From Streptomyces canus (GTDB taxonomy: Bacteria > Actinomycetota > Actinomycetes > Streptomycetales > Streptomycetaceae), in assembly GCF_041435015.1 (NCBI RefSeq), contig NZ_CP107989.1:8866001-8930000 (forward strand): 64,000 bases of DNA, written 5' to 3'. A program made the translations under genes and the position numbers. The notes under the pieces were generated by a model. It worked only from the letters and a program-made list of their open reading frames with translations, was not told the origin of the DNA and did not search any database. Below are positions 35,136 to 39,875 of the stretch, in pieces. Every line of letters begins with the position of its first letter. Positions within the stretch are counted from its first letter, which is position 1.

Positions 35136-35221
35136 GACGGGGAGTCTTCACAGAGGCTGTGCACGAGCTCTTCGGGAAAGCTGGTGCGAAAGCTGTGGTG
35201 TGAGTGATCAGGGAGACGCAG

Positions 35222-36097
35222 GTGTACGACGACAGCGACGGCCCGCGTGAGGCGGCGGAGCGGCTCACAGGCCGTACGGCGACGGATGAGCGCCCGCTGT
35301 CCGGCGCGCTGGCCGAGGTGGTCCTCGACGACGGCCGGACGGTGATGGTCAAGCGCGCCGACAGTCTTGAGGAGGCCCGGGCGGAGGCGGCGGGGCTGCG
35401 CTGGCTGGCCGGTGCCGGCACCGTCCCGGTGCCGATTGTGTACGGCCAGGACGGCCAGGGCGGCCACTGGCTGGTCACCGACCTGATCGCGCGGGGGCGG
35501 CCGAACCGGGAGGCTGCGCTCGGCCTGGGCCGGGCGCTGGCGGGCTTGCACCTCGCCGGGGCGCCCGCCTTCGGCTCGGCGCCGCCCGGTGGCCCCCGGG
35601 AGGCCTGCATCGGGCGCGCACCCATGCGGAACGTCGAGGGCACCGACTGGCCGGAGTGGTACGCCGAGCACCGGGTGCTGCCGTATCTGCGGAGCGCGGT
35701 GAACGACGGCACCATGACGCTTTCGGAGGCCGAGGTGATCGAGCGGCTCTGCGAACGGCTGCCCGGTCTCGCGGGCCCCGCCGAGCCCCCGGCCCGGCTG
35801 CACGGCGACCTGTGGAACGGAAACGTGCTGTGGGGCGCCGACGGCCACGCCTGGCTGATCGACCCGGCCGCGCACGGCGGCCACCGCGAGACCGACCTCG
35901 CGATGCTCCACCTCTTCGGCTGCCCGCACCTGGGCGAGGTGCTGCGCGGCTACGAACAGGTGGCACCGCTCGCCGACGGCTGGGCCGAACGCATCGGGCT
36001 CCACCAGCTGTTCCCCCTGCTGGTGCACACCGTGCTGTTCGGGCGGGGCTACGCCGAACAGGCCCTCAGCACGGCGAAGGCGGCCCTGGAACGGTGA
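35222..36097 (+). CDS. Fructosamine/ketosamine kinase-like protein
   Basis: 291 residues. The kinase-fold N-lobe Lys sits in VMVKRAD, the catalytic loop is HGDLWNGNVLW and the metal site is WLIDPAAHGGHRETDLAML; this set is diagnostic for the fructosamine-kinase family (PF03881). Such enzymes phosphorylate ketoamines on glycated proteins or metabolites so that they break down. The GTG at 35222 is chosen because GGGAG lies seven bases upstream; the GTG at 35204 has no ribosome site. It is divergent from the ABC/aldarate operon and ends before the tandem structured elements at 36137-36343. Confidence 0.88.
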   Translation: MYDDSDGPREAAERLTGRTATDERPLSGALAEVVLDDGRTVMVKRADSLEEARAEAAGLRWLAGAGTVPVPIVYGQDGQGGHWLVTDLIARGRPNREAALGLGRALAGLHLAGAPAFGSAPPGGPREACIGRAPMRNVEGTDWPEWYAEHRVLPYLRSAVNDGTMTLSEAEVIERLCERLPGLAGPAEPPARLHGDLWNGNVLWGADGHAWLIDPAAHGGHRETDLAMLHLFGCPHLGEVLRGYEQVAPLADGWAERIGLHQLFPLLVHTVLFGRGYAEQALSTAKAALER

Positions 36098-36136
36098 GTA
36101 CACCGGTCCAGGGCCGCCTGAGCGGGTGACATCGCG

Positions 36137-36212
36137 GGCGAGGAGAGCGAAGGAGCTGATTTCACGCCCCGAAGGGCAGTCGCTGAGAAGGAAGCTCCCT
36201 CATGGCCTCGCC
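36137..36212 (+). ncRNA. Structured RNA-like element, copy 1
   Basis: Outer stem GGCGAGG (36137-36143) pairs with CCTCGCC (36206-36212). Inner stem GGAGCT (36152-36157) pairs with AGCTCC (36193-36198). A small hairpin GCCC-CGAA-GGGC occupies 36166-36177. Purine-rich unpaired strands (AGAGCGAA and GAGAAGGA) are shared with copy 2. No open reading frame explains the conservation. The strand is assigned by the purine-rich side and is not certain. This and copy 2 fill most of the 36098-36360 spacer. Confidence 0.55.
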
Positions 36213-36264
36213 ACGGGCGGTACGGCCGCGGTGACCCGCGGGTGCCGCCCGGTGCGATGTCGAC

Positions 36265-36343
36265 GGCGAGGAAAGCGAAGGGGCTGGAGCTTTGGAGGCC
36301 CGGTTGTCAGCCGGTGAGAAGGAAGCCCCTTCATGGCCTCGCC
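36265..36343 (+). ncRNA. Structured RNA-like element, copy 2
   Basis: The same outer stem, GGCGAGG (36265-36271) with CCTCGCC (36337-36343). The inner stem is now GAAGGGGCT (36277-36285) with AGCCCCTTC (36324-36332), nine perfect pairs. Where copy 1 has an A-T pair, copy 2 has G-C, a compensatory change. The apical part differs (a CCGG...CCGG hairpin around 36300-36314). The two copies start 128 bases apart, in the same orientation, between convergent genes. Confidence 0.6.
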
Positions 36344-36360
36344 ACGACAGACGCTAGCAG

Positions 36361-38568
36361 TCACTCGGGGATCAAGTCGCGCAGATTTTCCGGGGTGATG
36401 ACCACCGAGTCCGGGTGCAACCCCTCGGGCCGCTCCAGGCCGATGTAGGTCACGGGCACGTCCGGCACCGACTCGGCATCCCAAGGTGCCACATCCGTAC
36501 CGCCGTTCGCCATCAGCTCGGTCAGATACCCGACCGTGAGCTGTTCGCGCTCGACGACGGCACGCAACAGTGTCGCCACCGACACCTGGTTGCCCTCGAC
36601 GCGGTTGTACGCCGGATGACCCTTCAGGTATAGGTGCAGCCACTTGGCGTGCCAACTCCCGTCCTCCGCACGCCGGAACGCCAGCGGCAGCGCCACCCGG
36701 CCCGGCCCGCGCAGCTCCGACTTCATCCGCACGGTACGCGCCTCGAAGGGCCGCCCCTGCTGCTCGCCCTCGCGCAGCATGAACCCGAAGAACGACTCCT
36801 CCGCCTCCTCGAACCCCTCCCCGGAGTAGATGTTGACCTGCGGGACGATGTACGTGCCCCGCACCGCACCGAGCCGCAGATTGATGAACTCCGAAGCGCC
36901 GTCGGGGGCGTTGGTGATGTCACCCGAGTGCTCGCCCTCCACCTCACGGAGGTTGGTGTACGACAGCCACGACACCGTGTCGTACTTCGCGTCCAGGAGC
37001 AGCGCCGACAGGTCGTAGTCGGTGACCCGCTGGGCCTGCTTCCAGTACACGAAGAACCGCAGCAGCTCCCCGTCGACCGGCGAGACGGAGCCGCGGGGCA
37101 GCACACCGAGTCCGGCCGAGGTCGCCCGCCCGCTGAGCGGAAGCGCCACGTCGAGGACGTCGGGGCCCACCAACAGCCGCTCCGGGGACGGGAGTCGACG
37201 GCCGATCTCCGCGTCGAGGGCGGCGATCAGACGCTCACGGTCCGCCTCCGGTACCGCCGTACGCGTGTCGTCGGCGACGTGCGCGCGGCCGAGACGGTTG
37301 ATGAACACCCGCTTCCGGCCCTTCTCCGCGGCCCGGTTGTGCAGGTACTCACGCACCGACAGCACGACCCGCCCGGACACCTCCGGGGCGGTCTGCTCTA
37401 CGGCGGCCACCACGGCGTCCCGCTCCTCCTGCGTGCGCGCGGTGCGCAGCAGTCGGTCCAGCGCGCGGAAGAGCCTGCCCGGCGCGGACTTGAGCAGCTC
37501 CGCCGCCCCGGTGACGTCGTCCGCACCGAGCAGTGCCTCGATGCGCGCGTCGAAGGTGTGGGCCTTCATCTCGCCCCGGGCGACGGCGAACACCTCGGCG
37601 GCGCGTGGCCACTGGGGGTACTCGTGCGGGTGCAGACGCTCGCCGAGCCGCTTGAAGGCCTCGCGGTGCGCGAGGACGTCGGCGAGCTTGGCCGGGGCCG
37701 CCGCGACGACCGAGTCGAGCCCCGCGAGCAGGGCCCGGCGGACCGGACGCGACAGTGCGCGGAACCGGGTCGGCTCCTGGAGGGACACATCCCCGCCCGA
37801 CACCGCGCAGGCGAGCCGCAGCACATCGGTGACGGTGTCCAGCAGCAGATCCGAACCCGCCTTCAGCCGGGCCTCGTTGACGACGGCACGGTTCTCCCGC
37901 ACCGGGATCCCCTCCGGCTGGGGCCCGTCGGCGCAGTGCTCGGCGAGCACCTTGAGGTCGGCCAGGTGCTCGTCGCCGAGCGGCGTGGTGCTTCCGGCCA
38001 GCGCCAGGTACAGGGCGGTGACCTCGTCGTCCAGGGCGCCGCCTGGGTGCAGGACGGTCAGGCGGTCGCCCACCGCGGCCGTCAGCTCGTCGTGCGCGGC
38101 GAGCATCTCGTCGTACGTGTGCTGGTAGGTGCCGTACGCCGGCAGCGTGAGCAGGTTGATCACGCCGTTGCGCAGCTGGGCGAGGACGCCGGAGCGGGCC
38201 TTGCCGTCCTCCAGGGCCTCGCGCACGCAGCGCATCCAGAACTCGAAGGTGTCCGGGACGTTGGCCGGGAAGTCCTTGAAGTAGACGTTGTGCCGCACAT
38301 GGTCGCCGGCCATCTCACGGACGGTGGCGAGCGTGCCGACGGCGGTGTCGACGACCGTGGCCTCCGACAGCCCCGACAGTTGCCTGAGCGCATCCGCCGA
38401 CAGCTTGAAGCCGACGGACATCAGCGCGGCGTCGAACTGCCGCGCCGCGACGGCGCCTTCCCCGACGGGACCCGCGAGGGAAGGGAGACGGAGGGTGTGC
38501 CGGATGACCAGGCGTTCCAGGCGGTGGACCATTCCGGAATGGTCGCAGAGGTGTTCGATCCGGCGCAC
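36361..38568 (-). CDS. TerD-domain protein (RING-less relative of the MXAN_6230/SCO0854 group)
   Basis: 735 residues. The long N-terminal part is helical with no motif I can name; it resembles, from memory, the MXAN_6230/SCO0854 family in which a RING-type zinc finger follows the first 150 residues. Here the matching place (around CVREALEDGK) has no Cys/His cluster. From about residue 500 a TerD-type calcium-binding beta domain is clear: RFFVYWKQ, DYDLSALLLD, HSGDIT, and a PQVNIYSGEGF end. TerD proteins belong to tellurite-resistance and stress complexes. The start at 38568 has no strong ribosome site; the ATG at 38532 is an alternative. The gene is alone between repeats and DUF5997. Confidence 0.7.
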   Translation of the reverse strand: MRRIEHLCDHSGMVHRLERLVIRHTLRLPSLAGPVGEGAVAARQFDAALMSVGFKLSADALRQLSGLSEATVVDTAVGTLATVREMAGDHVRHNVYFKDFPANVPDTFEFWMRCVREALEDGKARSGVLAQLRNGVINLLTLPAYGTYQHTYDEMLAAHDELTAAVGDRLTVLHPGGALDDEVTALYLALAGSTTPLGDEHLADLKVLAEHCADGPQPEGIPVRENRAVVNEARLKAGSDLLLDTVTDVLRLACAVSGGDVSLQEPTRFRALSRPVRRALLAGLDSVVAAAPAKLADVLAHREAFKRLGERLHPHEYPQWPRAAEVFAVARGEMKAHTFDARIEALLGADDVTGAAELLKSAPGRLFRALDRLLRTARTQEERDAVVAAVEQTAPEVSGRVVLSVREYLHNRAAEKGRKRVFINRLGRAHVADDTRTAVPEADRERLIAALDAEIGRRLPSPERLLVGPDVLDVALPLSGRATSAGLGVLPRGSVSPVDGELLRFFVYWKQAQRVTDYDLSALLLDAKYDTVSWLSYTNLREVEGEHSGDITNAPDGASEFINLRLGAVRGTYIVPQVNIYSGEGFEEAEESFFGFMLREGEQQGRPFEARTVRMKSELRGPGRVALPLAFRRAEDGSWHAKWLHLYLKGHPAYNRVEGNQVSVATLLRAVVEREQLTVGYLTELMANGGTDVAPWDAESVPDVPVTYIGLERPEGLHPDSVVITPENLRDLIPE

Positions 38569-38623: not shown

Positions 38624-39007
38624 TCAGGACTCCTGGCCCTGCTTCTTCTCCTTGATGCGCGCCGCCTCCTTGCGGACCTCCGCCTGGGTGGCGCGCTCCT
38701 TCTCCAGCCACTCGGGACCGTCTTCCCGCAGCGCCTCGATCTGCTCGGTGGTGAGGGGCTCGGTGACCCCGCCGCGCGCGAGGCCCGCGATGGAGACGCC
38801 CAGCCTGGCCGCGACGACCGGGCGGGGGTGCGGGCCGTTCTGGCGCAGGTCCTGGAGCCACTGCGGCGGATTGGCCTGAAGTTCGTTCAGCTCGGCGCGC
38901 GAGACCACGCCCTCCTGGAACTCCGAGGGGGTGGCGGGGAGGTACACACCCAGCTTCTTCGCCGCGGTCGCGGGCTTCATCGTCTGGGTGCTCTGATGCG
39001 ACTTCAT
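38624..39007 (-). CDS. DUF5997 family protein
   Basis: 127 residues. The whole chain matches the small actinobacterial DUF5997 family: TMKPATAAKKLGVYLPATP at the start, PPQWLQDLRQNGPHPRPVVAARLGVSI in the middle and a charged helical C-terminus. Function is not known; the middle resembles a DNA-binding helix-turn-helix-like segment (ARLGVSIAGLARGG). It is divergent from the LysR-like gene below, and this pairing is constant in Streptomyces (from memory), suggesting joint action. The ATG at 39007 follows -10 box TAGTCT by seven bases, so the transcript is probably leaderless. Confidence 0.85.
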   Translation of the reverse strand: MKSHQSTQTMKPATAAKKLGVYLPATPSEFQEGVVSRAELNELQANPPQWLQDLRQNGPHPRPVVAARLGVSIAGLARGGVTEPLTTEQIEALREDGPEWLEKERATQAEVRKEAARIKEKKQGQES

Positions 39008-39014
39008 GGAGTCC

Positions 39015-39059
39015 AGACTATCGGCCGCGCACGAGGCCTCCGACCACAGTGGGTAACCT
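39015..39059. promoter_or_regulatory. Back-to-back leaderless promoters of DUF5997 and the LysR-like gene
   Basis: Minus strand: TAGTCT at 39020-39015, seven bases before the ATG at 39007. Plus strand: TAACCT at 39054-39059, six bases before the GTG at 39066. Both match TANNNT and both transcripts would begin at or next to the start codon. The two boxes are 33 bp apart, so one bound protein could control both genes. Confidence 0.6.
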
Positions 39060-39065
39060 TGCCGC

Positions 39066-39875
39066 GTGACAGACTCGCCAGAACCCCCCTCCTTCCGGCT
39101 CGCGTACGTCCCCGGGGTGACGCCCGCCAAGTGGGTGCGGATCTGGCACGAGCGGCTGCCGGACATCCCCCTTGAGCTCCTCCAGGTGAGCGCCGCGGAG
39201 GCCTCCGACGTGTTGCGTGACCGCGGTGCGGACGCCGGTCTCGTACGGCTGCCGGTCGACCGTACGGTGTTCAGCGCGATTCCCCTCTACACCGAGACGT
39301 CGGTCGTCGTGGTCCCCAAGGACCACGTGGTGACCGCGGCGGAGGAGGTGACCCTGGAGGACCTGGCCGACGAGGTCGTCCTCCACCCCCTCGACGACGT
39401 CATCGGCTGGGACCGGCCGCCCGGCGAAGCGGCCTTCGAACGTCCCGCCACCACGGCGGACGCGATCGAGCTCGTGGCGGCGAACATCGGCGTCCTCGTC
39501 GTCCCCCAGTCCCTGGCCCGTCTCCACCACCGCCGTGACCTCACCTACCGCCCGGTCACCGACGCCCCGCAGTCCGACATCGCCCTGTCCTGGCGGGAGG
39601 ACGCCACGACGGACATGGTGGAGGACTTCATCGGCATCGTCCGGGGACGGACGGTCAACAGCTCACGGGGTCGCACCCAGCCGGAGCCGGAGCGAAAGCA
39701 ACGGCCCGAGAAGGGCGGCGGCCGCAAGCCCGCGGCGGGTGCGGGTGCGGGTGCGGGGAAGGGCGCGGCGCGGGGGTCCTCCGGCGCGGGCAAGGGTTTC
39801 CGCGGCGGGTCCGGCGGGTCCGGCGGCTCAAAGGGCGGCGGCGCCCGACGGGGGAAGCCCAAGCGCAGGGGCTAG
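39066..39875 (+). CDS. LysR-type substrate-binding domain protein without HTH, with basic Gly-rich tail
   Basis: 269 residues. Residues 1-195 form a periplasmic-binding-like LysR effector domain (FRLAYVPGVTPAKW..., LLQVSAAEASDVLRDRGADAGLVRLP, VAANIGVLVVPQSLA), but the N-terminal winged helix that LysR regulators use for DNA is absent. The last 65 residues are Arg/Lys/Gly-rich and disordered (GGGRKPAAGAGAGAGKG), possibly a nucleic-acid tether. With the divergent DUF5997 protein, which may supply DNA binding, it could form a split regulator. GTG start after a leaderless-type -10. Confidence 0.82.
   Translation: MTDSPEPPSFRLAYVPGVTPAKWVRIWHERLPDIPLELLQVSAAEASDVLRDRGADAGLVRLPVDRTVFSAIPLYTETSVVVVPKDHVVTAAEEVTLEDLADEVVLHPLDDVIGWDRPPGEAAFERPATTADAIELVAANIGVLVVPQSLARLHHRRDLTYRPVTDAPQSDIALSWREDATTDMVEDFIGIVRGRTVNSSRGRTQPEPERKQRPEKGGGRKPAAGAGAGAGKGAARGSSGAGKGFRGGSGGSGGSKGGGARRGKPKRRG

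Follow-up and report, generated by a model that had tools for sequence, protein, structure and literature searches.

Tandem hairpin RNAs beside a TerD-family gene in Streptomyces canus: a candidate Y-RNA-like partner for a protein family of bacteria and viral contigs

A 64,000-nt stretch of the Streptomyces canus chromosome (contig NZ_CP107989.1, positions 8,866,001 to 8,930,000; the chromosome is 10.68 Mb), which we call the window, contains two tandem copies of a hairpin element, A and B. They lie between a plus-strand fructosamine-kinase gene and a minus-strand open reading frame (ORF) of 735 amino acids (aa). We think it probable that each repeat is a gene for a Y-RNA-like non-coding RNA, the two standing in tandem, and that this RNA is the partner of the protein that is encoded just upstream of them on the minus strand. 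Comparison of genomes shows that the RNA goes with a single family of proteins, both in Actinomycetota, Bacillota, Pseudomonadota, and Deinococcota and on viral contigs, either before or after the gene. That the RNA is expressed, that it binds the protein, and what it does are what we infer. More broadly, and with only a slight lean in its favor, we suggest that a second Ro/Y-RNA-like ribonucleoprotein system exists across bacterial phyla and phages. In such a system, a protein with helical repeats and a TerD domain, and sometimes a RING domain, would act together with arrays of hairpin RNAs, some of them carrying YrlA-type tRNA mimics, in RNA surveillance or repair during stress and phage-host conflict.

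Structure and strand of the hairpin

The hairpins are 76-79 nt long and take a two-stem form. A preliminary description of this locus, made from the letters alone, had proposed two copies with a shared outer stem, and both copies are where it placed them (Table 1). The outer arms (GGCGAGG/CCTCGCC) are identical in A and B, and the compensatory change that it saw in the inner stem (GGAGCT/AGCTCC versus GGGGCT/AGCCCC) is real. It also pointed to conserved unpaired purine strands. These are indeed conserved, but they are the complement of what matters: on the minus strand they are the pyrimidine strands CUUCCUUCUC and GCUUUCC. The minus-strand consensus is GGCGAGG-CCAU-GAAGGGGCU-UCCUUCUC...AGUCCCUUC-GCUUU-CCUCGCC. 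Its loop holds a pyrimidine motif, CUUCCUUCU, that hardly varies, and there is an internal loop that is also conserved.

When we compared the region to 199 genomes of the genus with BLAST, 80 had matches, many of which were short or outside the hairpins. We counted base pairs in three alignments: A2, with 35 distinct elements drawn from 37 partly overlapping loci; A5, with 87 distinct rows from named genomes; and A3, with 34 matches, mostly from RING-type relatives of the protein (see below). A3 and A5 were fitted to a covariance model, so their pair counts are biased in its favor. In A2, 97.9% of the 560 stem cells are paired, and in 6 of the 16 pairs both partners have changed, as compared to an average of 2.6 in shuffled alignments; just 1 of 500 shuffles reached 6. 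The corresponding figures for A5 are 98.0% of 1392 stem cells and 9 of 16 pairs (shuffled mean 3.0; reached by 0 of 500), and if the partners are slid by 1-3 columns as a control, then 50-60% of the cells are paired. In A3, 96.5% of 544 stem cells are paired, again with both-side changes in 9 of 16 pairs. Folding of the two single copies, as compared to shuffled sequences, gave a modest gain (z of -1.8 and -2.6 on the plus strand and -2.5 and -3.5 on the minus strand). It is the comparative data that carry the case for a structured RNA.

The preliminary description had called the element a functional RNA that it could not match to a known class. The covariation supports this, and a search of other genomes with a covariance model did find homologs whose stems covary. 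Within the window, Rfam gave no gathering-level match, and the only matches at E up to 5 were to four unrelated microRNA models. These fell at 36066-36129, clear of both copies.

Where stem cells vary, it is the minus strand that reads them as G.U, so the selected RNA is the minus-strand one. There are 48, 95, and 46 G.U cells on that strand in A2, A5, and A3, versus 6, 9, and 5 A.C cells, which would be G.U if the plus strand were the RNA. The strand also bears on the suggestion that the element is a solo guide RNA of the TnpB type (omega) or some other transposon RNA, which we consider extremely improbable. This idea arose from a faint likeness of the plus-strand purine run, whereas it is the other strand that is under selection. 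Furthermore, hits across the genus lie at one gene family, whose member here is a TerD-family gene, and no TnpB was found among the four neighboring window ORFs that we scanned.

Linkage to one protein family

A covariance model of the RNA (R1) had 62 hits in 56 of the 199 genomes, which is a lower bound, as only part of the first-look candidates were scored. We compared these hits with selected places that match the 735-aa protein. All 62 are on the same contig and strand as a 735-aa gene, a relative of it, or a remnant of it: 50 are within 60 nt on the gene's 3' side, six are tandem copies on the 3' side at 116-209 nt, and six are 5' of a distant relative. Conversely, all 47 of the full-length close relatives in these genomes have an RNA hit. 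At two loci the RNA is retained beside only a remnant of the gene (63.8 bits in genome G155 and 63.9 bits in G104). This could reflect a function of the RNA that is independent of the protein, or the gene could have decayed recently.

Similarly, we examined the best 80 of 552 relatives in named genomes (75 Streptomyces, four Kitasatospora, and one record titled Streptosporangium). In 80 of 80 loci, the RNA is directly 3' of the gene and on the gene's strand. Nine of the loci have a second copy, and 88 of the 89 hits are on the gene strand. The sole opposite case is the second tandem copy at locus L160 (6320-6399). The fructosamine-kinase gene lies beyond the RNA in just 16 of the 80, so it is the protein gene, and not the whole neighborhood, with which the RNA is associated. 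We also considered whether the hairpin could be a DNA element, such as a protein-binding inverted repeat or a recombination site. Its outer arms are inverted over 7 bases, as such a site might be, but a G.U bias on one strand fits RNA and not DNA, and the hairpin keeps one orientation with respect to the gene, so we view a DNA element as highly improbable.

In these named loci, there is a promoter-like box, TGnTAnnnT, whose end is 6-8 nt from the start of the first RNA copy in 80 of 80 cases, although the loci are related to one another and are not independent observations. The spacing is 7 nt at 67 loci, 6 nt at nine, and 8 nt at four, and the inner letters of the box vary. As background, we sampled 112,398 positions in these loci, and 196 of them have TAnnnT at such a spacing. 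If it is a promoter, the box would set the start of transcription at the first base of the RNA.

The protein itself has a C-terminal part with a TerD fold, and its helical part aligns over 235 residues with a phage Ro60 structure. A Pfam search with a limit of E 1 gave nothing for it. Against the NCBIfam family NF041916, which is that of the MXAN_6230/SCO0854 RING proteins, it scores 353.9 bits, under the cut-off of 600, and no RING is seen in it when it is aligned to its relatives. Most of the close relatives are listed at about 723 aa, with a start that is 12 codons later than that of the 735-aa ORF.

A more distant relative does have a RING domain, which resembles that of Cbl. It is present in 30 of the 199 genomes at about 31-39% identity and corresponds to the MXAN_6230/SCO0854 RING protein. 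RING-type relatives pass the NF041916 cut-off in 49 of 200 genomes in the family. Every one of the 28 RING-type loci that we fetched has an RNA hit (20.7-41.7 bits; weakest E 0.014). The stems of these RNAs differ, with GGGGCGG/CCGCCCC in most of them, and their loops read CUUCCUUCU or nearly so. When loci were instead picked by protein family alone, 28 of 28 had an RNA hit, one of them weak (E 0.06); among these, G173 is repeated from the first RING set, and G216 and G242 had previously been found with the RNA model.

The RNA is 3' of the gene in the 735-aa subfamily and 5' of the gene in the RING subfamily, where the placement was computed for six genomes. At two RING-type loci (L098 and L129), it ends about 38 nt before the ORF and is on the gene's strand. 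This placement would suit an autoregulatory element, in which the protein binds a leader hairpin to control its own mRNA and the copies that follow a gene are decoys or stabilizers of the mRNA's end. Such a mechanism needs just the binding that a Y-RNA-like partner already assumes. The preliminary description also offered a tandem cis-regulatory RNA. This is conceivable, but in the window, as in the 735-aa type in general, the RNA comes after the gene and behind its own promoter-like box, while at RING-type relatives it comes before the gene. Also, autoregulation does not require tandem arrays or tRNA-like modules, and both occur in the relatives described below (arrays of as many as three copies in Deinococcus, and larger ones on viral contigs). 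We consider autoregulation to be unlikely, though worth keeping in mind.

Other phyla and viral contigs

We found distant relatives of the protein by running tblastn against plasmid records. R1 had hits at eight of the first nine plasmid loci. For example, Niallia taxi has a tandem pair (31.9 and 28.4 bits), whereas Variovorax has one copy (27.6 bits) and a partial second copy (E 0.12) behind TATAAT. Of eleven further loci, five had hits: one on a Streptomyces plasmid and four on Deinococcus plasmids, where the copies, two or three in number, lie upstream of the gene. At two Vibrio loci, we see two copies by eye, both of which the R1 model misses. We did not find the RNA at the Segatella, Prevotella, or Mycolicibacterium loci. 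In an alignment of 14 chosen sequences from across the phyla, most of CUUCCUUCU and a UUUCC-like 3' strand are kept, and the loop varies in three of the four Deinococcus copies.

On a Hymenobacter volaticus plasmid (L277, 3213-3324), upstream of a TerD-family relative, Rfam finds a tRNA at 51.7 bits that ARAGORN does not call. This RNA carries UUCCUUCU in its middle part, and it is possibly a tRNA-mimic version of the hairpin RNA.

Two neighbors may relate to RNA repair. In Variovorax, rtcR is near the gene, with two hypothetical genes and a DUF6283 gene between them. RtcR is a regulator that is encoded beside rtcBA operons, and some bacteria also have Rsr and Y RNAs there, according to the portion of PMC7790460 that we consulted. 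And as a separate observation, on two Vibrio plasmids (L275, 9188-9517, and L276, 9175-9502) a gene annotated as an RNA ligase family member lies about 3 kb past the TerD-family gene and the pair of RNA copies that goes with it.

The spread across phyla also bears on whether the RNA is an ordinary base-pairing small RNA (sRNA), whose CU-rich loop pairs with Shine-Dalgarno-like sequences in its targets while the protein gene is a conserved neighbor or a helper. The near-invariant loop CUUCCUUCU is complementary to AGAAGGAAG, and a promoter-like box with a downstream hairpin is how an sRNA gene would be laid out. But we would not expect such an sRNA to be tied to one protein family across phyla with a changed gene order, nor to have a conserved internal loop, and we think this quite unlikely.

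Relatives of the protein are also present on viral contigs. A scan of IMG/VR yielded 80 loci, with viral status as classed by the source and with several contigs that are near duplicates. Within 700 nt of the gene, we counted 157 instances of the motif CTTCCTTCT on the gene strand, as compared to 0 on the opposite strand; it is present at 67 of the 80 loci, and 47 have two or more. Of 129 distinct viral copies, 54% can form a perfect inner stem of 6 base pairs (bp), as compared to a mean of 4% and a maximum of 9% if strands are permuted among the copies (200 permutations). At least 5 of the 6 inner pairs form in 87%, versus 24% when permuted. An outer stem of at least 4 bp is possible in 66 of the 70 copies with a perfect inner stem, a figure without a control. 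The 5' internal loops in viral copies are, for instance, CTATA or CTATG.

Some of the viral copies have tRNA-like modules. The apical part of eight copies has a T-loop-like sequence, which occurs just 2 times in 165,076 bases of gene bodies. We scanned nine chosen loci of the 80 with Rfam. The YrlA model (RF02553, cut-off 69) gave matches below the cut-off at L332 and L341 (42.3 bits, E 4.9e-6) and at L331 (34.3 bits, E 0.0011). At L341, the YrlA match is a module of T-arm and D-arm inside the hairpin, and pairing is poor over the Ro-binding stem. Ordinary tRNAs were found in several of the nine loci. Two side observations are that the apical loop has a T-arm-like sequence at L287, L295, L298, L332, and L341, with L341 adding a D-arm in the same permuted order as in YrlA, and that Rfam finds four tRNAs in a row at L342 (110-466), upstream of a TerD-family gene and its RNA copies.

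The locus and known systems

Table 1. Parts of the locus in the window (positions count from the window's first base)
Feature	Position	Strand	Remarks
RNA copy B	36265-36343	-	Copy nearer the promoter-like box; 36343 is its predicted 5' end; R1 match E 5.3e-16; alignment A2, pair counts, G.U bias
RNA copy A	36137-36212	-	Distal tandem copy; R1 match E 5.3e-15
Extended -10-like putative promoter box, TGCTAGCGT	36351-36359	-	Ends 7 nt before copy B; from sequence
G+C-rich hairpin in the spacer between copies	36214-36251	-	Fold -29.0 kcal/mol; terminator-like, without a T run
Inverted repeat	36078-36119	.	Arms of 19 nt with 95% complementarity; located where the convergent kinase gene ends, closes the unit
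Fructosamine-kinase gene	35204-36097	+	Convergent neighbor
Linked protein gene, 735-aa ORF	36361-38568	-	Helical N-terminal part and TerD-fold C-terminal part
DUF5997 gene (Pfam PF19460)	38624-39166	-	Directly upstream of the 735-aa gene

The RNA begins just past the stop codon of the 735-aa ORF (36361-36363). In the sequence upstream of copy A, we did not find a separate TAnnnT box at the 6-8 nt spacing, so this copy may be produced by read-through. By eye, many relatives have hairpins downstream of the RNA that are comparable to the one in the spacer. The inverted repeat is a possible bidirectional terminator.

If the RNA is a Y-RNA-like partner, then the helical domain is the likeliest binding site for the hairpin, by analogy with Ro60/Rsr and Y RNAs, and the pyrimidine loop and the internal loop would be the protein's contacts. 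The variable apical part, which in some relatives is a YrlA-type tRNA-like module, might tether, present, or mimic a client, while the TerD domain, along with RING where it is present, might link the particle to a stress signal. The particle might then serve in RNA quality control or repair, such as after RNase attack during phage conflict. We suggest surveillance or repair because of the rtcR neighbor, the YrlA-like modules, and the Ro60-like alignment.

The score for YrlA and the TROVE profile both weigh against placing this RNA and protein in the Y RNA system. The window's copies have no YrlA match at E up to 5 and no tRNA-like part by Rfam. Unlike Rsr/Ro60, the neighboring protein does not match the TROVE profile and has a TerD domain, and TROVE is absent from the families that 23 relatives match at E up to 10.

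The hairpin RNA is apparently undescribed: we found no account of it in the portions of the open-license literature that we covered, and an earlier one may exist. That literature does not mention SCO0854 or MXAN_6230, and scr0853/0854/0855 and SCO0853/0855 led to one unrelated plant paper. Term searches in PMC2422843 and PMC3230914 had no match. Phage TROVE and TerD proteins are treated separately in what we saw of PMC7824862. If our proposal is correct, then proteins that are now named as TerD family, cytoplasmic, or RING domain-containing (2179, 730, and 3962 database matches) would gain an RNA partner with testable motifs. The Ro/Y-RNA theme would be widened to another protein architecture and to viral genomes. 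It would also join TerD-type stress proteins to RNA surveillance and provide an experimental handle in laboratory Streptomyces.

Among known systems, the arrangement is like that of YrlA and other Y RNAs with Rsr/Ro60, in that a gene for a small stem-loop RNA is beside its presumed protein partner. The permuted tRNA-like module of some viral relatives matches YrlA below its cut-off, while the CUUCCUUCU loop is outside of the aligned part of YrlA. The rtcR gene near the Variovorax locus recalls the rsr-yrlBA-rtcBA operons, beside which RtcR is encoded as the regulator (PMC7790460, in part). With the NF041916 and TerD-family proteins, the window protein shares a TerD-fold C-terminus and a distant relationship to the RING proteins, but its NF041916 score falls short of the cut-off and alignment reveals no RING in it; the database entries that we examined do not name an RNA partner for either. 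Finally, the small RNAs from the 3' ends of Streptomyces genes, such as the sodF 3'UTR sRNA, also come straight after a gene and are followed by a hairpin. In contrast to those, the RNA described here is tied to one protein family across phyla and can be on either side of its gene.
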